From Deltaproteobacteria bacterium (lineage in GTDB: Bacteria > Desulfobacterota > DSM-4660 > Desulfatiglandales > HGW-15), in NCBI GenBank assembly GCA_030671095.1, contig DAOVAK010000150.1, positions 1-6,767 on the forward strand: 6,767 nucleotides of DNA, written 5' to 3'. Both the position numbers and the translations under genes were made by a program. Numbering within the stretch: the stretch's first letter is position 1; each line of letters starts with the position of its first letter. Positions 1-6,767 of this stretch are shown one piece after another. Under the pieces are notes generated by a model. That model made no database searches. It saw nothing but the letters and a program-made list of their open reading frames with translations, and was not told the DNA's origin.

Positions 1-105
1 GGGCTTGTCTAACAAAATCAGATCGTGAGGTCAACAAAATTATGTGCATTTCCTTGAGACAGCTTTAGCAGGCCACAATACTCACCATGCCCAATCCCCC
101 CTCAC

Positions 106-146
106 CCCCGTATCAAGCCTGTCCCTGTGAAAACAGGGGTACGGGG
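106..146. repeat. Nested hairpin with GAAA loop
   Basis: An outer 7-bp stem, CCCCGTA (106-112) with TACGGGG (140-146), encloses a 6-bp stem CCCTGT (123-128) with ACAGGG (133-138) closing a GAAA loop. The outer stem sequence recurs at 273-279/285-291 inside the neighbouring element, so both appear to derive from one dispersed palindromic repeat family. No T-tract follows, so a terminator role is not supported. Confidence 0.5.
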
Positions 147-173
147 CAAGCTCTAATTCTCGCCCACCCATCA

Positions 174-347
174 GGAGACTGTGTCGCAATTCGTCATCCC
201 CCGCCGACGTCGGCGGGAGATCCAGAATGATTTGATTTTCCGCTAGCTTCCTGGGTTCCGGGTCTCGCCCAACCCCGTATCGAGTACGGGGCAGGCTTAC
301 CGGGCTCGCCCGGAATGACAGTTTTGTTGAATTGTGACACAGTCTCC
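174..347. repeat. MITE-like element with 19-bp inverted ends
   Basis: The ends GGAGACTGTGTCGCAATTC (174-192) and GAATTGTGACACAGTCTCC (329-347) are inverted repeats matching at 18 of 19 positions. Inside lie three palindromes: an 18-nt perfect palindrome at 200-217, a 7-bp stem CCCCGTA/TACGGGG at 273-291, and CCGGGC-TC-GCCCGG at 300-313. GTCATCCC (193-200) and the complement of GGAATGAC (312-319) form an offset second inverted pair; the right side has about nine extra bases. The roughly 174-bp length, the terminal inverted repeats and the absence of any gene fit a non-autonomous miniature element or a composite intergenic repeat. No target-site duplication is evident at the borders. Confidence 0.6.
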
Positions 348-387
348 AGGGGAGAGGGAGAAGGGGGAAGTCCGTGTCTTTGTGGCC

Positions 388-885
388 TCATTTCCTCCTA
401 ATTATCACCTGATCAATGGACCTTCTGCTCCCCTTTCCCCTGCGCTCCGCAGGGTGTCCAAGGGCCACAACAGCCATGAGTTCACAACTTTCTGGCACCT
501 CAAGGATCTTTTGAACGGCTTCCCTGTTATTGAGAATCTCACCCAGCCATACCGCTCCCAAGCCGAGGTGATGGATAGCCAGAAGCATATTCTGGATACA
601 GGCCCCCATGGCCTGAATATCTTTGACACGATTATAGCTTTCCGCATTGTCCAGAAACACGGCGATACAGACGGGTGCACCTTTAATAATATGGGCGTAT
701 TTGGTCTGCCGAGAGAGTTCTATTCTCAACTCGCGATCGCGTACAATGACGAATTTCCAGGGCTGATTGTTAAGTCCAGAAGGCGCCCACGTGCCCATTT
801 CGACGATCTGATCGAGGATCTGGTCATCCACAATATCCGTTGTAAATTTCCTGATGCTCCGACGCGTTCTAATCTCCTCCAGCAT
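388..885 (-). CDS. Nitroreductase family protein (FMN-dependent, small form)
   Basis: Predicted cytoplasmic flavoprotein of 165 residues that would use FMN and NAD(P)H to reduce nitro or quinone-like substrates; the true substrate cannot be read from the sequence. Family signatures are the N-terminal RTRRSIRKF segment (residues 6-14, phosphate-contacting arginines), APSGLNNQPWKF (34-45, flavin-binding loop), the central helix GACIQNMLLAIHHLGLG (94-110) followed by WLGE, and the C-terminal VVALGHPAE strand. Length is normal for the short nitroreductase subgroup. The ATG at 885 is preferred over an in-frame GTG at 891 because AAGGGGG sits 5 nt before the ATG, whereas it abuts the GTG. The gene overlaps the end of the upstream glycosidase-like gene by 17 nt, which implies translational coupling. 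No downstream partner exists on this strand within the window. Confidence 0.9.
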   Translation of the reverse strand: MLEEIRTRRSIRKFTTDIVDDQILDQIVEMGTWAPSGLNNQPWKFVIVRDRELRIELSRQTKYAHIIKGAPVCIAVFLDNAESYNRVKDIQAMGACIQNMLLAIHHLGLGAVWLGEILNNREAVQKILEVPESCELMAVVALGHPAERRGKGSRRSIDQVIIRRK

Positions 886-1759
886 TTGCACCCCCTTTTC
901 TCTTCACAACCCCAATCACATTGGGTATTCTCTGTAGCGATTTGAGATCCTCATGTTCCGTGGTATCCGCTTCACAGGTTCCGACAAATATCATCTCTTT
1001 GCCACGGGCTCTAATGTAAAGCGTTGCCTCCGGCCCACCTTCAAGGTACATGGCACTTTTTATGTTAATGGGGATAGAAAGCAGAATATGGATGAGGTCA
1101 TGGGTTGAGAAGGGCGACCGACTCAGGATGAACAGGACATGGTTGTCGTTGTCCATGCCGATGGCAGCCGAACCGTAGATCTCCTCTCGCTGTGGCCAAC
1201 CCCTCTTTTTTCCGTCACTTATCATCCTGTAGTTCTGCACGACCGTGTTGTACCTCTTGATCACGCTCTTCCAGTCCTTATGAAGGCGTCGATCCACAAT
1301 CTGCACTTCAGGGAGGGAGGCGTCAACAGGATTAAAGCAAAGAAAGGCCCCAAAAGCAGGATTGATATAGGAATTGTTGAGGTGTTTGTCATTCCTCATA
1401 TATCCCGTGCTCCTGAGAGGCTCCATATTCTGATACATGCTGGCATTGATAGCGGCCAGCAGGCCAAATTCATTGCACCATGCTTTTGCGGTTTGAGGTT
1501 TGCGGTCGTATTCTGACGCAGACAAGAGTCTCAGCGCATGGAACTTCGGGTCGATTTTAAGGATAACAATCTTATGATTGCAAATCTTGGATCTCATCTT
1601 TGGATCGAACGCTCCCATATATAGTCCATCAGAAAGTTTCTGCCACGCACGGGGTTCAGCACTGGAACGCGAGACAGCTATGATCAAGAACATCAGGAGA
1701 AGTAGTAGGATTGCAGACAGACGACTATTCAACATGTTTCTCCGTACACCACTTTTCAT
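869..1759 (-). CDS. Secreted phosphodiester glycosidase-like (NAGPA/DUF2233) protein
   Basis: A 296-residue exported protein of the phosphodiester glycosidase (DUF2233, NAGPA-type) family, whose characterised members cleave sugar-phosphodiester linkages; the substrate here is unknown. The N-terminus has a signal peptide: basic residues (R6, R7, R13), a hydrophobic core around 16-29, and a likely cleavage near SSA-EP (34/35). Family motifs follow: AINASMY (103-109), NYRMISDGK (176-184), SAAIGMDNDNHVLFI (197-211) and the conserved LEGGPEATLYI (239-249). The frame stays open upstream to a TTG at 1843, adding 28 residues. The ATG at 1759 is chosen because GGGAGGAG precedes it and because the longer start falls in the promoter. 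Export to periplasm or cell surface is expected. It is the first gene of an operon with the overlapping nitroreductase, a pairing with no obvious biochemical logic. Confidence 0.85.
   Translation of the reverse strand: MKSGVRRNMLNSRLSAILLLLLMFLIIAVSRSSAEPRAWQKLSDGLYMGAFDPKMRSKICNHKIVILKIDPKFHALRLLSASEYDRKPQTAKAWCNEFGLLAAINASMYQNMEPLRSTGYMRNDKHLNNSYINPAFGAFLCFNPVDASLPEVQIVDRRLHKDWKSVIKRYNTVVQNYRMISDGKKRGWPQREEIYGSAAIGMDNDNHVLFILSRSPFSTHDLIHILLSIPINIKSAMYLEGGPEATLYIRARGKEMIFVGTCEADTTEHEDLKSLQRIPNVIGVVKRKGGANAGGD
891..897 (-). promoter_or_regulatory. Ribosome binding site of nitroreductase
   Basis: On the minus strand AAGGGGG (897 to 891) is 5 nt upstream of the ATG at 885. It runs right up to the alternative GTG codon, so it decides the start in favour of the ATG. 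It lies 3' of the upstream gene's stop codon only in map terms: the upstream gene is still being translated through it, which suits coupled translation. Confidence 0.6.
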
Positions 1760-1763
1760 GTCT

Positions 1764-1771
1764 CTCCTCCC
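1764..1771 (-). promoter_or_regulatory. Strong ribosome binding site of glycosidase-like gene
   Basis: GGGAGGAG on the minus strand, with the GGAGG core 6 nt before the ATG at 1759. It is the clearest Shine-Dalgarno in the window and fixes the start inside the longer open frame. Confidence 0.8.
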
Positions 1772-1812
1772 AAATTCCGGATTTTCTTCGAGGAAAGGAA
1801 CGCCTGTCCGTG

Positions 1813-1843
1813 AGTATAGCAAAGACTTCATAGGATTGCGCAA
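1813..1843 (-). promoter_or_regulatory. Extended -10 promoter of minus-strand operon
   Basis: Read on the minus strand, TGCTATACT gives an extended -10 (TATACT at 1818-1813, five of six consensus bases, preceded by TGn). A possible -35, TTGCGC (1843-1838), sits at a long 19-nt spacing, so the extended -10 probably carries most of the activity. Transcription would begin near 1805, leaving a leader of about 45 nt. The alternative TTG start at 1843 coincides with the -35 and would not be transcribed. Confidence 0.5.
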
Positions 1844-1964
1844 GTCTGGAATCTATTAAAACCGAAACTTTCTCAAAAAAATATTAAATTTCAACATGTT
1901 ATGCCGCACCAAGGAAAACCGACAAGAAACACGCTTCTGAAAAATCGCGCTCCGTGCGCTTCAT

Positions 1965-1992
1965 TTGACATTCTTGGTGAAATTGTTATGTT
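1965..1992 (+). promoter_or_regulatory. Promoter of the CULT-Lon operon
   Basis: A perfect -35 TTGACA (1965-1970) is separated by 16 nt from TATGTT (1987-1992, four of six -10 bases). Transcription would start near 2000, about 28 nt before the ATG at 2028. The first in-frame start-like codon of the CULT gene, a TTG at 1965, lies within the -35 itself and so cannot be the translation start from this promoter. The region is shared with the divergent minus-strand operon; its AT-rich centre lies around 1868-1895. Confidence 0.5.
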
Positions 1993-2027
1993 TTGATATC
2001 CGATACCCCCTTGCCTTGGATTCAAAG

Positions 2028-2393
2028 ATGCTCTTTCTGCTTTCTTCCCTTGAAAAAGTGGGTGGAAATGGTGCGAAGGCTTATCATTGCGCTGCCTGCG
2101 GTGGATTAATCAGCCACTCTGACCGACTGATTCTCGTCGGGGGGACCGATCGTCACCTTTTCGTCAACCCGGCAGGTGTGGAGTGCGATTTTCATACCTT
2201 TTATTCCTGTCCAGGTGCAATCGCTGTAGGAGAAGCGACTGAGGTCCACACCTGGTTTTCAGGGTATACGTGGCGAATGGCCTTCTGCCGCCAATGCGGT
2301 CAACACCTTGGCTGGTATTACGAAGCCCTTTTTAAATCCGAGCGCCCGGGGGAGTTCTGGGGGATCCTTATCTCCCACGTCGTCAGCCAATAA
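2028..2393 (+). CDS. Single-domain CULT (cereblon-like) protein
   Basis: A 121-residue protein matching the CULT domain, the beta-tent fold that binds thalidomide-type imides in human cereblon and in the Magnetospirillum homologue MsCI4. Zinc ligands are CAAC (C21, C24) and CRQC (C87, C90). NPAG (47-50) and the HTWFSGYTW segment supply H74, W76 and W82; HLGWYYE supplies W96 and Y98. By motif alignment these correspond to human N351, H378, W380, W386, W400 and F402, so the ligand cage looks complete. The closing strand FWGIL (110-114) resembles cereblon FWGL. No signal peptide is convincing, so it is probably cytoplasmic. The start is uncertain: ATG 2028 has only a weak GGA ribosome site 7 nt upstream, and GTG 2058 is possible; both keep the whole domain. 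The next gene, 46 nt downstream, encodes a Lon-type protease with no separate promoter visible, suggesting a joint role in recognising and degrading damaged proteins (inference). Confidence 0.88.
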   Translation: MLFLLSSLEKVGGNGAKAYHCAACGGLISHSDRLILVGGTDRHLFVNPAGVECDFHTFYSCPGAIAVGEATEVHTWFSGYTWRMAFCRQCGQHLGWYYEALFKSERPGEFWGILISHVVSQ

Positions 2394-2426
2394 TCAAGTG
2401 CCCAAAGAATCAACAAGCGAAAAAAT

Positions 2427-2432
2427 GGAGGG
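2427..2432 (+). promoter_or_regulatory. Ribosome binding site of Lon-like gene
   Basis: GGAGGG lies 7 nt before the ATG at 2440. It is much stronger than the site of the upstream CULT gene, which suggests the protease is translated more efficiently than its co-transcribed partner. Confidence 0.75.
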
Positions 2433-2439
2433 ATAGGAT

Positions 2440-4881
2440 ATGCCCAAACAATTCCCGGAAGTCCCGATTGACGAGCTTCGAGGCCATGTGGATCCAGAAT
2501 CTCTTCCCTTTGAAAACACAGCCTCCCTCGAACCCCCTAAAGAACGAATCCTCGGCCAGGACAGGGCCAGCGATGCCATCAAATTCGGGATGGGCATGAA
2601 GGAAAACAATTATCACATCTTCATTGCAGGTCCCTCCAAAGCGGGGCTGACTTACACAGCCAGGACCTATCTTGAAGAACAGGCGAAAAAAGAGCCAACG
2701 CCGCCTGACTGCTGTTATGTGTACAACTTCAAGGAACCCGATAAGCCCACGAGCTTAAGAATTTCGGCTAGCCAGGGCAAAGAACTCAAAAAAGATATGC
2801 AGGAGTTGATCAACACCCTTCAGACAAAACTCCCTGAAGTCTTTGACAGTGAGGACTACCGCGGTAGAGATAGCGAATTGCAAGAGGGCATCGAACGACA
2901 CCGTCGAGAAATTATCGATGGGTTGTCTCGTGAAGCCAAGGAAGAAGGTTTCATACTTCAGGTCTCTCAGGTGGGCATGGTCATCATCCCAGCCACGAAA
3001 GAGGGTCAACCCTTGAGCCAAGAGGAACTGGCCCAACTGGGCGAAGAGGACAGGCAAAAGCTCAAAGAAAAGAGTGATGAACTCCAGGAAAAAATGAAAG
3101 GGGCAGTTAGCAAAATCCGAGATTTGGAAGCGGAGTTCAAGGAGAGACAAGAAAAGCTGAAAAGCAACATTGCCCTATTTGTTGTGGGACAGGAGTTGGA
3201 AGGCTATCGGGAAAAGTATAAGGAAGAGTCAGAGGTGATAGAATACCTCAAGGTGGTGCAGGAAGATATTGTTGAGAACATCGATGACTTCATAAAGAAA
3301 CCGGAAAGCCCACAACAGCAACTCGTGCAGCTTCCTGTCGCTGCCAGGGAACCCACCTTTCGTAAGTATGATATCAACGTCCTGGTTGACCATTCCGAAA
3401 CAAAAGGTGCTCCCGTTGTCATCGAATCCAATCCCATTTATCCAAACCTCTTCGGAACCATTGAACGCCAGGCATTGTTCGGCGCCCTGTTTACCGATTT
3501 CACCATGATCAAACCAGGGGTCCTTCACAAAGCGAATGGTGGATATCTCGTCATGAAGGCGTTGGATTTGCTAAGGTGGTATGTCTCCTATGAGGCACTG
3601 AAGCGGGCACTTCGAGATCAGGAAATTCGTATTGAAGATTTGGGGGAGCTTTACGGCCTTTTCAGCACACGAACTATTCGTCCTGAGCCCATTCCTCTCA
3701 ATATCAAAATCGTGCTCACGGGGGATCCCTATCTTTTCGAATTGCTTCACTTTTACGATGATCGTTTCGAGAAGCTCTTCAAGGTCAAGGCACACATGGA
3801 TGACCGGATGGACCGAAAAGATGAGAGCGCCATGCAGGTGGCACAAATGATCGGGGACTTCTGTTCTGAGCAGGACATCCGTCATCTGGATCGAAGGGGT
3901 GTGGCTCGGATCCTTGAATACAGCATGGAGCGCACCGAAGACCGGGATAAACTCACCCTAGAACTGGGAGACATAAGCGACCTGATCAGAGAGGCCAACT
4001 ACTTTGCTGGCCAGAATGAGACGGAATTCATCCAACGGGCTCACGTTGAAAAGGCTATTCAAAAGCGCATTTTCAGATCCAATCTATGGGAGGAACGGAT
4101 CAAAGAACTGGTGGAGAAGGATATTTTCTGGATCGAAACCGATGGCTCAAAAATAGGTCAGATCAATGGGATCTCTATTCTCATGACAAGTGATCACGAA
4201 TTCGGTAAACCCAACCGGATTACAGCGACAGTCTCGGTGGGTCGCGAGGGTGTGGTTGGCATCGAACGTGAATCCAAGATGAGTGGCAACATTCACACCA
4301 AAGGCGTCATGATACTTACCAGCTTTCTCAAAGAACGCTTCGCCCATAACAAGCCGTTGTCCCTTTCTGCAACCTTGTGTTTTGAGCAAAGCTATGGATT
4401 GGTGGAAGGAGACAGCGCGTCTAGCACAGAGCTTTTTGCCCTATTAAGTGCCTTGGCAAGGATCCCCATTTACCAAGGGATCGCCGTGACAGGTTCGATC
4501 AGCCAGAAAGGGGAAATCCAGGCCGTGGGCGGTGTAACCCGTAAGGTGGAGGCCTTTTTTGACATCTGCAAGCACAAGGGTCTCAATGGCCGTCAGGGCG
4601 TTATCATCCCGGAAAAAAACGTCCGAAACCTCATGCTCAAGCAAGAAGTCATTGATAGTGTGAAAGCGGGGCAATTCCACATCTGGCCCATTTCCACGGT
4701 TGAGCAAGGCATTGAAATTCTGACGGGGACGGAAGCTGGAGAACTGCAACCTGATGGCACATATCCCGAAGGCACCCTCTTTAGTACGGTGGATGAACGC
4801 TTCCTGGAAATTGCGGAAATCGTCAAGAAATTCGCCAAAGAGGAGGAAGAGGAGGGCGAAAAACCGGATGAAGAAAAATGA
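2440..4881 (+). CDS. Lon-family (S16) peptidase, LonB/LonC-like with degenerate AAA+ module
   Basis: An 813-residue cytoplasmic serine-lysine peptidase of the AAA_32/Lon_C group, expected to form a ring and degrade unfolded or tagged proteins. An N-terminal AAA-like part begins around residue 35 (ILGQDRASDAIKFGM). Its Walker A position reads GPSKAGLT (64-71), with L70 where the ATP-binding lysine should be. A helical, charged coiled-coil insertion of LonC type covers about 193-275. AAA landmarks resume with NPIYPNLFGTIE, ANGGYLVM (365-372, a Walker B region lacking the usual DE), the sensor-like LTGDP (426-430) and FEKLFKVKA. The protease domain occupies about 570-770. S659 in EGDSASSTE and K702 in GGVTRK are 43 residues apart, as in E. 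coli Lon S679/K722. The C-terminus is a Glu/Lys-rich acidic tail. There is no LonA-type N-domain, so substrate recognition may rely on the coiled coil or a partner such as the adjacent CULT protein. Whether it hydrolyses ATP is doubtful. Confidence 0.92.
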   Translation: MPKQFPEVPIDELRGHVDPESLPFENTASLEPPKERILGQDRASDAIKFGMGMKENNYHIFIAGPSKAGLTYTARTYLEEQAKKEPTPPDCCYVYNFKEPDKPTSLRISASQGKELKKDMQELINTLQTKLPEVFDSEDYRGRDSELQEGIERHRREIIDGLSREAKEEGFILQVSQVGMVIIPATKEGQPLSQEELAQLGEEDRQKLKEKSDELQEKMKGAVSKIRDLEAEFKERQEKLKSNIALFVVGQELEGYREKYKEESEVIEYLKVVQEDIVENIDDFIKKPESPQQQLVQLPVAAREPTFRKYDINVLVDHSETKGAPVVIESNPIYPNLFGTIERQALFGALFTDFTMIKPGVLHKANGGYLVMKALDLLRWYVSYEALKRALRDQEIRIEDLGELYGLFSTRTIRPEPIPLNIKIVLTGDPYLFELLHFYDDRFEKLFKVKAHMDDRMDRKDESAMQVAQMIGDFCSEQDIRHLDRRGVARILEYSMERTEDRDKLTLELGDISDLIREANYFAGQNETEFIQRAHVEKAIQKRIFRSNLWEERIKELVEKDIFWIETDGSKIGQINGISILMTSDHEFGKPNRITATVSVGREGVVGIERESKMSGNIHTKGVMILTSFLKERFAHNKPLSLSATLCFEQSYGLVEGDSASSTELFALLSALARIPIYQGIAVTGSISQKGEIQAVGGVTRKVEAFFDICKHKGLNGRQGVIIPEKNVRNLMLKQEVIDSVKAGQFHIWPISTVEQGIEILTGTEAGELQPDGTYPEGTLFSTVDERFLEIAEIVKKFAKEEEEEGEKPDEEK

Positions 4882-4898
4882 GGCCATCACCCTTTTCT

Positions 4899-4939
4899 CC
4901 CTATGGGCCGGCTTCCGGCTCCGCTTCCAGCCCGTAGGG
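4899..4939 (+). terminator. Stem-loop after the Lon-like gene
   Basis: CCCTATGGGC (4899-4908) pairs with GCCCGTAGGG (4930-4939) over 10 bp including one T-G wobble. The 21-nt loop itself has GGC/GCC-rich repeats that could pair further. It begins 17 nt after the stop codon and could terminate or stabilise the CULT-Lon transcript. No T-tract follows, so an intrinsic terminator is not proven. The remaining spacer up to 5141 contains no gene. Confidence 0.4.
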
Positions 4940-5083
4940 CTTCCAGGCCGGAGGGTAGAGCCTACAGCTCGGAGAGAGGTAAGGGGATCTCTATTCGGGC
5001 AGGGGGAGGTGGCTAAAAAAGTATTACCATGTCAACACTCATAGACGTTACCGAGAGATTTGGGATGTTTCTGACTGAGAGGG

Positions 5084-5110
5084 TTGACGGATAGCCGCCG
5101 AATGTTTAAT
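5084..5110 (+). promoter_or_regulatory. Candidate promoter of BFN gene
   Basis: TTGACG (5084-5089, five of six) and TTTAAT (5105-5110, five of six) are separated by 15 nt, shorter than the preferred 17. Transcription would start near 5117, leaving room for the GAGAGG ribosome site (5129-5134), which is 7 nt before the ATG at 5142. The good hexamers but short spacing make this a moderate prediction. Confidence 0.4.
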
Positions 5111-5141
5111 AGGATCACATGAAGACCTGAGAGGTTACGAG

Positions 5142-5597
5142 ATGACATCTGACGAAATGATATCCATAAGTGAAGTTCATCTTGAGTCCGATCCCAATAG
5201 GGGGAATATGGTCGTTCTCAAAGAAGATGCAGACGCAGAGCGCTATTTCATGATGTTCGTTGGCGACGCGGAATTTGCCGCCATTGCCAAGGAGAAAGGC
5301 CTGGTTGAACCGAAACGCCCTCTAACCCATGAACTTTACCTCAATATCATGGACAAACTGCAACTGGAGTTCCTTCGCATCGAGATCCACGACATGCAGC
5401 AGGAGACCTTTTATGCCCACGTGATCTTGCGTGCCAATGGGGAAGAGCATGCTATTGACAGTAGACCCAGCGACGCGGTAGCGCTTGCCTTGAACAGGAA
5501 GGTCCCCATTTTGGTCCGCCAGGATCTATTTCGCCGCAAGCTTACTCAGGAAGAAGTTAAGGAATATGAGGGGCTTGTAAAAAGTGTCAAGTTTTAG
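5142..5597 (+). CDS. Bifunctional nuclease family (BFN/DUF151) protein
   Basis: A 151-residue protein of the BFN/DUF151 family. The plant founder has combined RNase and DNase activity, while bacterial members are largely uncharacterised. Diagnostic segments are FVGDAEFAAIA (39-49), RPLTHEL (59-65), the helix-strand region NIMDKLQLEFLRIEIHD (68-84) and the family hallmark DSRPSDAVALAL (106-117), followed by VPILV. A C-terminal charged helix rich in E and K replaces the UVR domain seen in some plant and bacterial relatives. Length is typical. The start is supported by GAGAGG 7 nt upstream. No signal peptide is present, so it is cytoplasmic. It appears to be a single transcription unit, separated from the Lon-like gene by 260 bp and from the permease by 93 bp. 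A role in stress responses together with the protease is speculative. Confidence 0.9.
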   Translation: MTSDEMISISEVHLESDPNRGNMVVLKEDADAERYFMMFVGDAEFAAIAKEKGLVEPKRPLTHELYLNIMDKLQLEFLRIEIHDMQQETFYAHVILRANGEEHAIDSRPSDAVALALNRKVPILVRQDLFRRKLTQEEVKEYEGLVKSVKF

Positions 5598-5621
5598 GTG
5601 TTGAACAGCAAATCTTGACAC
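5584..5621. repeat. Inverted repeat across BFN stop codon and next promoter
   Basis: GTGTCAAG (5584-5591) and CTTGACAC (5614-5621) are perfect 8-bp inverted repeats with a 22-nt loop. The left arm is in the last BFN codons, the stop codon is in the loop, and the right arm contains the -35 TTGACA of the permease promoter. It could be a weak stem-loop on the BFN mRNA or an operator-like site; chance is also possible. Confidence 0.4.
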
Positions 5622-5643
5622 ACAACCATCTTCTTCATATCCT
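5615..5643 (+). promoter_or_regulatory. Promoter of the EamA permease gene
   Basis: A consensus -35 TTGACA (5615-5620) lies exactly 17 nt from TATCCT (5638-5643, four of six -10 bases). Transcription would start near 5650, giving a leader of about 40 nt. This argues that the permease is expressed independently of the BFN gene. Confidence 0.5.
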
Positions 5644-5690
5644 GCCTTGATCGGAGTGTCCTCCCTAACATCTAAAACAGGATAGCTGCC

Positions 5691-6602
5691 ATGTACCGAG
5701 CCCAACTTCGATGGCAACCCATAGCCATTCTCCTGCTCTGTGCCCTGACCTGGGGGGCCAACATGGCTATCGTAAAGATGACGTTTCGCGAGCTGGAGCC
5801 TCTGTTCATGGCTGGCCTGCGCTCCCTGGTGGCCAGCGGGTGCCTCTATGTCTGGATGAGGGCCAAAGGGATTACCATCTTTCCTTCCAGAAGTATTCTT
5901 TTCCACGGAATCGTGATTGGATTTCTCTTCGGATCGGAGTTTGCTCTCATCTATGTGGGCCTCAAGTACACGCTCGCGTCAAGGATGTACGTTCTCCTTT
6001 ACACTGCGCCTTTTTTCGTGGCCCTGGGCGCCCATTTCTTCTTAAAGGGGGATCGCATCAATCCCTGGAAAGCGGGAGGTCTGGTCCTGGCCTTTGTCGG
6101 CATAGTGGCCTTGTTTTCCAAAGGTCTGGACTCTTTCTCCTTCAGCGCTTTGCCTGGCGATCTCTTGGCCCTAGCTGCCGGCGTGGTGTGGGCCGCTACA
6201 ACGCTATATGTCAAGAAGTATCTGGCATACCAGACAGTGCCCTTACAGACCCTTTTCTACCAGGTCTTCTTTTCTGCGCCTCCATTGTTCCTCATGAGTC
6301 TCATGCTGGAAGACCCCACCTTCTCCAACCTTACGTTGTTTGGAGGCTTTTCCCTGTTTTATCAATGCATCATCGTCGCCTTCCTCAGCTACCTCGCCTG
6401 GTTTGAGCTCATCCACCGTTACCCCGTCAGTCTGTTGCACGCCTTTTCATTTTTCACGCCCGTCTTCGGTGTCTTGCTGAGCGGAGCCCTGATTCTCGGC
6501 GAGTTCATCGGCCCCAATCTTATCTTTGCCCTCACTTTCGTCAGCGTAGGGATGGTCCTGGTCAACCGCCAGCCCAAGGCTGAAACCGATCCGGAAAACT
6601 AA
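5691..6602 (+). CDS. EamA/DMT-superfamily permease
   Basis: A 303-residue inner-membrane protein of the drug/metabolite transporter superfamily, with two tandem EamA repeats and about ten predicted helices; the substrate (metabolite exporter or uptake carrier) cannot be assigned. The first repeat opens with the family-typical WGANMAIVK (21-29) in helix 1, then the FMAGLRSLVASG segment of helix 2 (39-50) and the LKYT-A-YVLLYTAPFFVAL region. The second repeat starts near residue 155 (GDLLALAAGVVWAATTLYVKKY). It ends with the LLSGALILGE motif and a last helix before a short polar tail (NRQPKAETDPEN). Length is standard. AGGA 8 nt before the ATG serves as the ribosome site. The gene stands alone downstream of BFN with its own promoter. 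Confidence 0.92.
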   Translation: MYRAQLRWQPIAILLLCALTWGANMAIVKMTFRELEPLFMAGLRSLVASGCLYVWMRAKGITIFPSRSILFHGIVIGFLFGSEFALIYVGLKYTLASRMYVLLYTAPFFVALGAHFFLKGDRINPWKAGGLVLAFVGIVALFSKGLDSFSFSALPGDLLALAAGVVWAATTLYVKKYLAYQTVPLQTLFYQVFFSAPPLFLMSLMLEDPTFSNLTLFGGFSLFYQCIIVAFLSYLAWFELIHRYPVSLLHAFSFFTPVFGVLLSGALILGEFIGPNLIFALTFVSVGMVLVNRQPKAETDPEN

Positions 6603-6629
6603 TACAAGCCCATTTAATATTTTTGCAAT

Positions 6630-6740
6630 TGTCATTGCGAGCCCTTCGAATTCCTCAGGGTAAACTCCGCGCGGCAATCTCCTCCTTCACTCCGAGATTG
6701 CTTCGTCGTCCCGCGAAACGCGGGACTCCTCGCAATGACA
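6630..6740. repeat. Dispersed palindromic intergenic repeat (GTCATTGCGAG type)
   Basis: The ends TGTCATTGCGAG (6630-6641) and CTCGCAATGACA (6729-6740) are perfect 12-bp inverted repeats. Inside are GTCCCGCG/CGCGGGAC around AAA (6708-6726, 8-bp stem) and GCAATCTC/GAGATTGC (6674-6681/6694-6701). This sequence style is familiar from multi-copy intergenic repeats in many bacteria, including Desulfobacterota. It lies 27 nt after the permease stop codon and may fold in its mRNA and limit read-through or 3' decay. Confidence 0.75.
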
Positions 6741-6767
6741 CTTTAGATATCGCTTCTATATTACTTG

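Follow-up and report, generated by a model that had tools for sequence, protein, structure and literature searches.

Gene content of the locus

The DNA analysed here, called the window throughout, comprises positions 1–6,767 (6,767 nucleotides, nt) of contig DAOVAK010000150.1 (assembly GCA_030671095.1) from a Deltaproteobacteria bacterium of the Desulfobacterota, and carries a gene for a single-domain, cereblon-like CULT protein followed by genes for a LonC-type protease and a bifunctional nuclease (BFN) domain protein (Table 1). The conserved CULT–LonC–BFN neighbourhood suggests, but does not prove, that a damage-reading domain of the cereblon type takes part in bacterial protein clean-up.

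An earlier reading of this DNA, referred to as the original prediction, had described CULT followed by a Lon-family protease, and had proposed that CULT might act as an adaptor or sensor presenting imide-marked or otherwise damaged proteins to that protease. The gene pair is confirmed: the CULT gene is complete, both open reading frames (ORFs) are intact and lie 46 nt apart on the same strand, the protease gene has a good ribosome site, and a consensus scan of the gap (2394–2439) called neither a promoter-like nor a terminator-like site. The interval first delimited, 2028–4881, holds both genes but leaves out the third member of the cluster, the BFN gene (5142–5597), which is separated from LonC by 260 nt.

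The −10 element of the promoter-like site at 1965, called by the same consensus approach, ends 35 nt ahead of the CULT ATG. Promoter-like sites number 9 in the whole window compared with 5.7 ± 2.4 in shuffles, which is near chance level, and promoter scans of this kind are weak evidence. The TTG at 1965, given as the start of CULT in the ORF list, was rejected because methionine occupies the position of the ATG at 2028 in 87% of aligned sequences.

Table 1. Positions of the cluster genes, of putative signals and of an informative pair of sister loci (window coordinates unless a locus number is given)
Feature	Position	Strand	Basis
CULT (cereblon-like) single-domain gene, 121 amino acids (aa) from ATG 2028	2028..2393	+	ORF, Pfam, structure matches
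LonC-type protease gene, 813 aa	2440..4881	+	Intact ORF, Pfam, solved LonC matches, motifs
BFN domain gene (PF02577, DUF151), 151 aa	5142..5597	+	Pfam; solved relative TM0160
GGAGGG, likely ribosome site of LonC	2427..2432	+	7 nt before LonC ATG; read from sequence
Promoter-like sequence upstream of CULT (TTGACA, 16 nt, TATGTT)	1965..1992	+	Consensus scan alone
Sister pair with and without CULT, G012/G442	L012:9293-12949 and L201:3644-6779		

The CULT protein

The CULT protein matches the Pfam family Yippee-Mis18 (PF03226, 1.4e-8), the solved bacterial CULT protein MsCI4 from Magnetospirillum gryphiswaldense (PDB 4v2y and others; 1.7e-20) and full-length human cereblon chains (about 1e-12). 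An AlphaFold2 model built from a 48-row alignment (predicted local distance difference test score, pLDDT, 89.5) superposes on MsCI4 with TM-scores of 0.79–0.83 and root-mean-square deviations of 1.1–2.1 for the three best matches, and superposes on cereblon too; the best 50 PDB matches to the model are MsCI4 or cereblon entries, so that the predicted structure has the β-tent fold.

The zinc ligands are C21, C24, C87 and C90, and both CxxC motifs are invariant in two alignments. The aromatic cage is formed by W76, W82 and W96, which are invariant and aligned with those of MsCI4, together with Y98 and N47. Across 121 aligned CULT sequences (the window protein and 120 of the 125 relatives found), the four cysteines, the three tryptophans, Y98 and N47 are 98–100% conserved, and H74 is conserved in 77%. 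The available part of PMC8900816 equates W79, W85 and W99 of MsCI4 with W380, W386 and W400 of human cereblon, and through this mapping W76, W82 and W96 of the window protein correspond to the same human residues; the same text treats one bacterial CULT protein as an established surrogate for thalidomide binding. At the level of aligned residues, the ligand pocket and its cage are conserved, and by analogy with its homologues the window protein would be expected to bind cyclic imides.

Two further cysteines, C53 and C61 (window 2184–2210), are present in 96% and 98% of the subfamily, at positions without cysteine in MsCI4. A tree of CULT sequences based on 121 columns left 18 of its 37 inner branches open, and a search of viral contigs gave two pattern matches but no relatives.

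The LonC protease

The protease gene matches AAA_32 (PF13654, 7.5e-51), LonB_AAA-LID, LonC_helical (PF20437, 1.2e-13) and Lon_C in Pfam, and its product matches the solved LonC chains 4fwd and 7euy (7e-92 and 2e-91). The catalytic dyad, S659/K702, is intact, with 42 residues between the two and an Asp (D658) before the Ser, and the LonC-specific insertion is present as CKHKGLNG (residues 710–717), which fits C-x3-GL-x-(G/E); the rules for dyad spacing, the preceding Asp and the insertion were taken from the available portions of PMC3391209 and PMC9569914. Both Walker motifs are degenerate, Walker A reading GPSKAGLT (residues 64–71) and Walker B GGYLVMKA (367–374).

On its domains and motifs, the window protease is a LonC. 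The original term, Lon-like protease, was correct as to family, but the more exact assignment is LonC, probably ATP-independent. Identity as a LonA or archaeal LonB was rejected. A LonA has an N-terminal LON domain and canonical Walker motifs; the Walker motifs of the window protease are degenerate, and neither it nor CULT has a Pfam match to the LON domain at E up to 1, which bears out the earlier observation that the protease lacks the LonA N-domain.

The window LonC resembles MtaLonC and TTC1975 LonC in its C-x3-GL-x-G insertion, degenerate Walker motifs, GDS site and Ser-Lys dyad, but is longer (813 aa versus 719), has the Walker B Asp replaced by Lys and is linked to BFN and CULT; the Walker changes in MtaLonC are the milder ones. 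MtaLonC is described in the available text of PMC3391209 as a hexamer without ATPase activity. By comparison with such homologues, the window LonC is probably ATP-independent and devoid of ATPase activity; its substrates should therefore be already unfolded, and it probably degrades only such chains.

These features extend to its relatives (genomes and loci are hereafter numbered G and L, respectively). All 14 members of the LonC clade delimited below have the Walker A Lys and Walker B Asp replaced and the dyad intact. The consensus Walker A Lys is also absent from all seven tabulated LonC sequences from outside the clade, four of which are close to the clade Walker pattern, while Walker A varies in G741 and G399, and G003p, a paralogue, departs furthest. 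Many genomes in the class of G004 contain a further LonC-like gene about 40–43% identical to that of the window (L029–L033 and L121–L128 among the loci), with neither BFN nor CULT beside the copies examined.

Conservation of the cluster within one LonC clade

A 43-row CULT alignment, run against genome contigs in an initial scan, picked out 14 loci, five of which lie beside LonC and BFN, upstream in L004, L009, L012 and L014 and downstream in L007. LonC matches are present in all 14 genomes; the match in G008 runs to the end of its contig, and the idea that LonC is broken in G001 and G005 was rejected, as the pieces (L210, L212 and L213) abut runs of N that represent scaffold gaps. The class of G004 was surveyed in 85 genomes, with clade-type LonC taken as about 70% identity or more; clade LonC occurs in 11 of them, and window-type CULT was found by search in six, all within those 11. 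G446 gave no CULT search match, but its contig starts, as judged by eye from the translation, inside the C-terminus of a CULT just ahead of LonC, which raises the number to seven, all with clade LonC. Among the 291 genomes from the order of G014, 25 have a strong LonC match, and the 25 loci examined include the LonC–BFN pair in two, G014 and G502.

Fourteen LonC sequences, including that of the window, form one clade (support 100/99), in all members of which LonC is followed by BFN; the BFN gene of the window scores 100.2 bits for PF02577, where the cut-off is 27. Outside the clade, BFN was found beside LonC, within at most 1.5 kilobases (kb), in none of 29 loci from the class of G011 (L166–L194) and none of 23 from the order of G014 (L215–L237). 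CULT adjoins LonC–BFN in eight of the 14 clade members, and BFN is the more constant partner of clade LonC. CULT is located upstream of LonC in six (the window, G446, G004, G009, G012 and G014), and it comes after BFN in G007 and G466, which are sister genomes. The 46-nt spacing between CULT and LonC in the window compares with 13 nt in G009, 102 nt in G012 and 444 nt in G004. With both sides seen, G003, G442 and G502 have no adjacent CULT, and the genomes of G442 and G502 have no CULT match at all. One side is unseen in the remaining three: a different ORF lies upstream of LonC in G469, whose contig ends in BFN, and the 194 and 138 nt seen upstream of LonC in G463 and G470 contain no CULT end.

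Comparison of the flanks of six loci (the window, G004, G009, G012, G014 and G007) revealed one shared family besides the triad, in G004 and G007; this comparison was based on ORFs, with some real genes displaced by long antisense ORFs, and had only short pieces for the window and G009. The genes are thus kept together in related genomes with mostly different flanks, in eight of 14 clade members, and coincidence in a single genome, which the original prediction had left as a possibility, is rejected. Ahead of the cluster in G004, G007 and G466 (L004:8286-8777, L007:3941-4444 and L199) lies a member of a 163–167 aa family with no significant match in Pfam.

Interpretation and alternative explanations

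Our tentative reading, held with somewhat less than even confidence, is that CULT and LonC form a functional pair in a small co-expressed proteostasis cluster with BFN, selected together in one bacterial group, probably the Desulfobacterota. CULT would bind proteins or fragments with a cyclic imide at the C-terminus, left by chain breakage or modification at Asn or Gln, and would either hand them to LonC or hold them until LonC acts; LonC, a Ser-Lys protease without ATP-hydrolysis motifs, would degrade imide-ended chains once these are already unfolded. A break at Asn can give a chain a C-terminal imide, and the pieces so formed are frequently unfolded. An imide-capable CULT pocket, a protease that probably cannot unfold its substrates and conserved clustering would together fit a role in clearing fragments of broken proteins. 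BFN, which follows LonC throughout the clade, may serve as a second adaptor, a lead provided by plant UVR-DUF151 proteins from Arabidopsis, which are enriched in a ClpC1 trap according to the available part of PMC8889267. Contact between CULT and LonC, substrate delivery, co-expression, selection for the cluster and the role of BFN are steps that we infer only indirectly. The fuller picture of a ubiquitin-free counterpart of the cereblon pathway is more speculative and, taken whole, doubtful. In it, a free CULT would recognise the cyclic imide at the C-terminus of a broken or aged protein and pass that protein to an ATP-independent LonC chamber, BFN serving as an additional adaptor. The adaptor or sensor interpretation put forward originally is, overall, partly supported.

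Several observations, both within the clade and outside it, weigh against a functional pair. In G004, the 444 nt between CULT and LonC speak against a tight operon, the CULT of G014 (L014:10001-10304) is broken by stops or a frameshift, and the CULT of G003 lies elsewhere (L003), apart from LonC. The sisters G012 and G442 have a common metallo-β-lactamase-fold gene (78% identical) upstream, which abuts LonC in G442 and is separated from it by CULT in G012, so that CULT is present or absent between the same two genes. LonC sequences adjacent to CULT do not form one clade (approximately unbiased test, p = 1.9e-6), and CULT adjacency changes four times on 20 scored rows with G469 counted as lacking it, or three times on 19 with G469 unscored, gains and losses not being told apart by this parsimony. 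No significant fusion of CULT to a large protein was found among 72 candidates of about 514–1634 aa, a search whose sensitivity is limited to shared 5-residue words.

The genome of G014 also contains a second, divergent CULT match elsewhere, without internal stops. In a test of transfer into G014, grouping of G014 with G502 as one clade was not rejected (p = 0.106). Misbinning of the G014 contig is weakly disfavoured by the relatives of a flanking protein, which, among 45 chosen genomes, is nearest to three of its own order (65, 63 and 62%) and then to one of the class of G004 (62%).

Within the sample, CULT and LonC are linked in a single LonC clade only. Of the 55 genomes from the class of G011, 53 have LonC at the threshold used and 12 have window-type CULT; LonC is adjacent in none of the 12 close-relative CULT loci, of which L008 and L013 show less than 300 nt on one side and the rest 1.8 kb or more on both; in eight of the 12 loci a DsbD-like gene comes after CULT, as judged by clustering, with two of the eight checked by Pfam. 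A draw of 395 genomes from the phylum, centred by choice on G012, contains some CULT in 38, four of window type and 34 divergent. Clade LonC, at a strict threshold, is present in 19 of the 395, including all four genomes with window-type CULT and none of the 34 with divergent CULT. An adjacent LonC was found in none of the 33 divergent loci (of 34) whose neighbourhoods were fetched; at L080, a 29%-identical Lon-like gene lies about 6.6 kb away. CULT matches occur in 180 of the 291 genomes from the order of G014, and none of 28 further divergent loci has LonC in flanks of at most 1.5 kb, nine of which are cut shorter. Many genomes are draft bins and a limited number of candidates was scored in each, so that absences are soft, and the co-occurrence counts take no account of shared ancestry; the neighbours were clustered for 46 CULT loci. 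A general CULT–Lon rule in bacteria is rejected by these counts (0/12, 0/33 and 0/28), and the anticipated enrichment of CULT beside Lon-like genes in related genomes holds in one LonC clade (8/14) but fails elsewhere in the sample. The DsbD-like thiol:disulfide gene lies after CULT on the same strand in L001, L002, L005, L006, L008, L010, L011 and L195, and in seven of these eight loci a DnaJ-like gene follows about 2.4–3.2 kb on, in wider synteny.

The breadth of LonC without CULT (53/55 versus 12/55 genomes in the class of G011), the occurrence of CULT beside other genes elsewhere and the existence of an MsCI4 structure with deoxyuridine (4v31) would all agree with CULT and LonC being co-expressed but independent, answering the same protein-damage stress with no contact between them, so that LonC acts alone and CULT serves as a sensor or sink for imide-ended peptides or for a small ligand, for instance a pyrimidine. 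Independence by itself does not, however, explain why CULT is found on either side of the pair, upstream of LonC in six genomes and downstream of BFN in two, and we place this possibility on the unlikely side. The switch of sides in G007 and G466 also tells against passenger linkage, whereby CULT joined LonC–BFN by chance and was inherited without a functional tie, as does the persistence of the triad while almost all of its surroundings differ. That every linked case falls within a single well-supported clade (100/99), that the trait changed three to four times on the tree and that LonC–BFN persists without an adjacent CULT in G442, G502 and G003 all speak for a passenger; even so, we consider it unlikely.

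CULT could also have a role linked to redox chemistry or repair, with a DsbD-like thiol:disulfide transporter as its more usual partner and its adjacency to LonC secondary. The DsbD-like gene after CULT in 8/12 loci from the class of G011 and the extra cysteines C53 and C61 (96% and 98%) point in this direction, but several of the eight loci belong to wider shared synteny and hence are not independent, and none of the six clustered LonC-clade loci (the window, L004, L007, L009, L012 and L014) holds a member of the DsbD-like family; such a role seems quite improbable.

If the reading of CULT and LonC as a functional pair is true, the cyclic-imide degron would be placed outside ubiquitin systems; on the more speculative picture of a ubiquitin-free pathway, recognition of the cereblon degron would predate its link to ubiquitin. 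The conserved protease cluster offers a candidate partner for bacterial CULT. Conversely, clustering with CULT suggests a possible source of specificity for LonC proteases, which probably cannot unfold their substrates.

Relation to known systems

Each part of the cluster is known, and the CULT–LonC–BFN cluster itself appears undescribed in the open-licence literature searched: searches that combined bacterial CULT with Lon, with operons or with a prokaryotic setting brought up the 2015 family paper and structural work, and none showed the CULT–LonC pairing; the available part of the 2015 CULT family paper (PMC4287342) contains no occurrence of 'operon' or 'neighbo-'. MsCI4 resembles the window CULT in its single CULT domain, zinc cysteines, three-Trp cage and fold, at about 36–38% identity; the window gene stands in a LonC–BFN cluster. 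Human cereblon, the substrate receptor of CRL4-CRBN, shares the CULT domain and ligand pocket, whereas the window protein has no LON domain and the protease is encoded by a separate gene; because Pfam gave no LON match for either gene, the parallel with cereblon drawn by the original prediction holds by function but not by shared architecture. Human cereblon works with DDB1 and ubiquitin.

The bacterial protease adaptors ClpS and SspB act in the way proposed for CULT, but serve ATP-driven unfoldases, which LonC probably is not. As described in the available part of PMC8889267, Arabidopsis UVR-DUF151 in the ClpC1 trap resembles the window BFN in that a BFN/DUF151 domain is tied to a protease system; it belongs to plastid Clp and carries a UVR domain, whereas the tie between BFN and LonC in the window is one of gene order alone.

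Neighbouring genes

The outer genes of the window, assigned by Pfam, encode a nitroreductase (− strand), a NAGPA-type protein (− strand) and an EamA transporter (+ strand). In G446, the position after BFN, held by the EamA transporter gene in the window, is taken by a gene for a PAC2-family protein (L200:3190-4158), a family that includes proteasome assembly chaperones.

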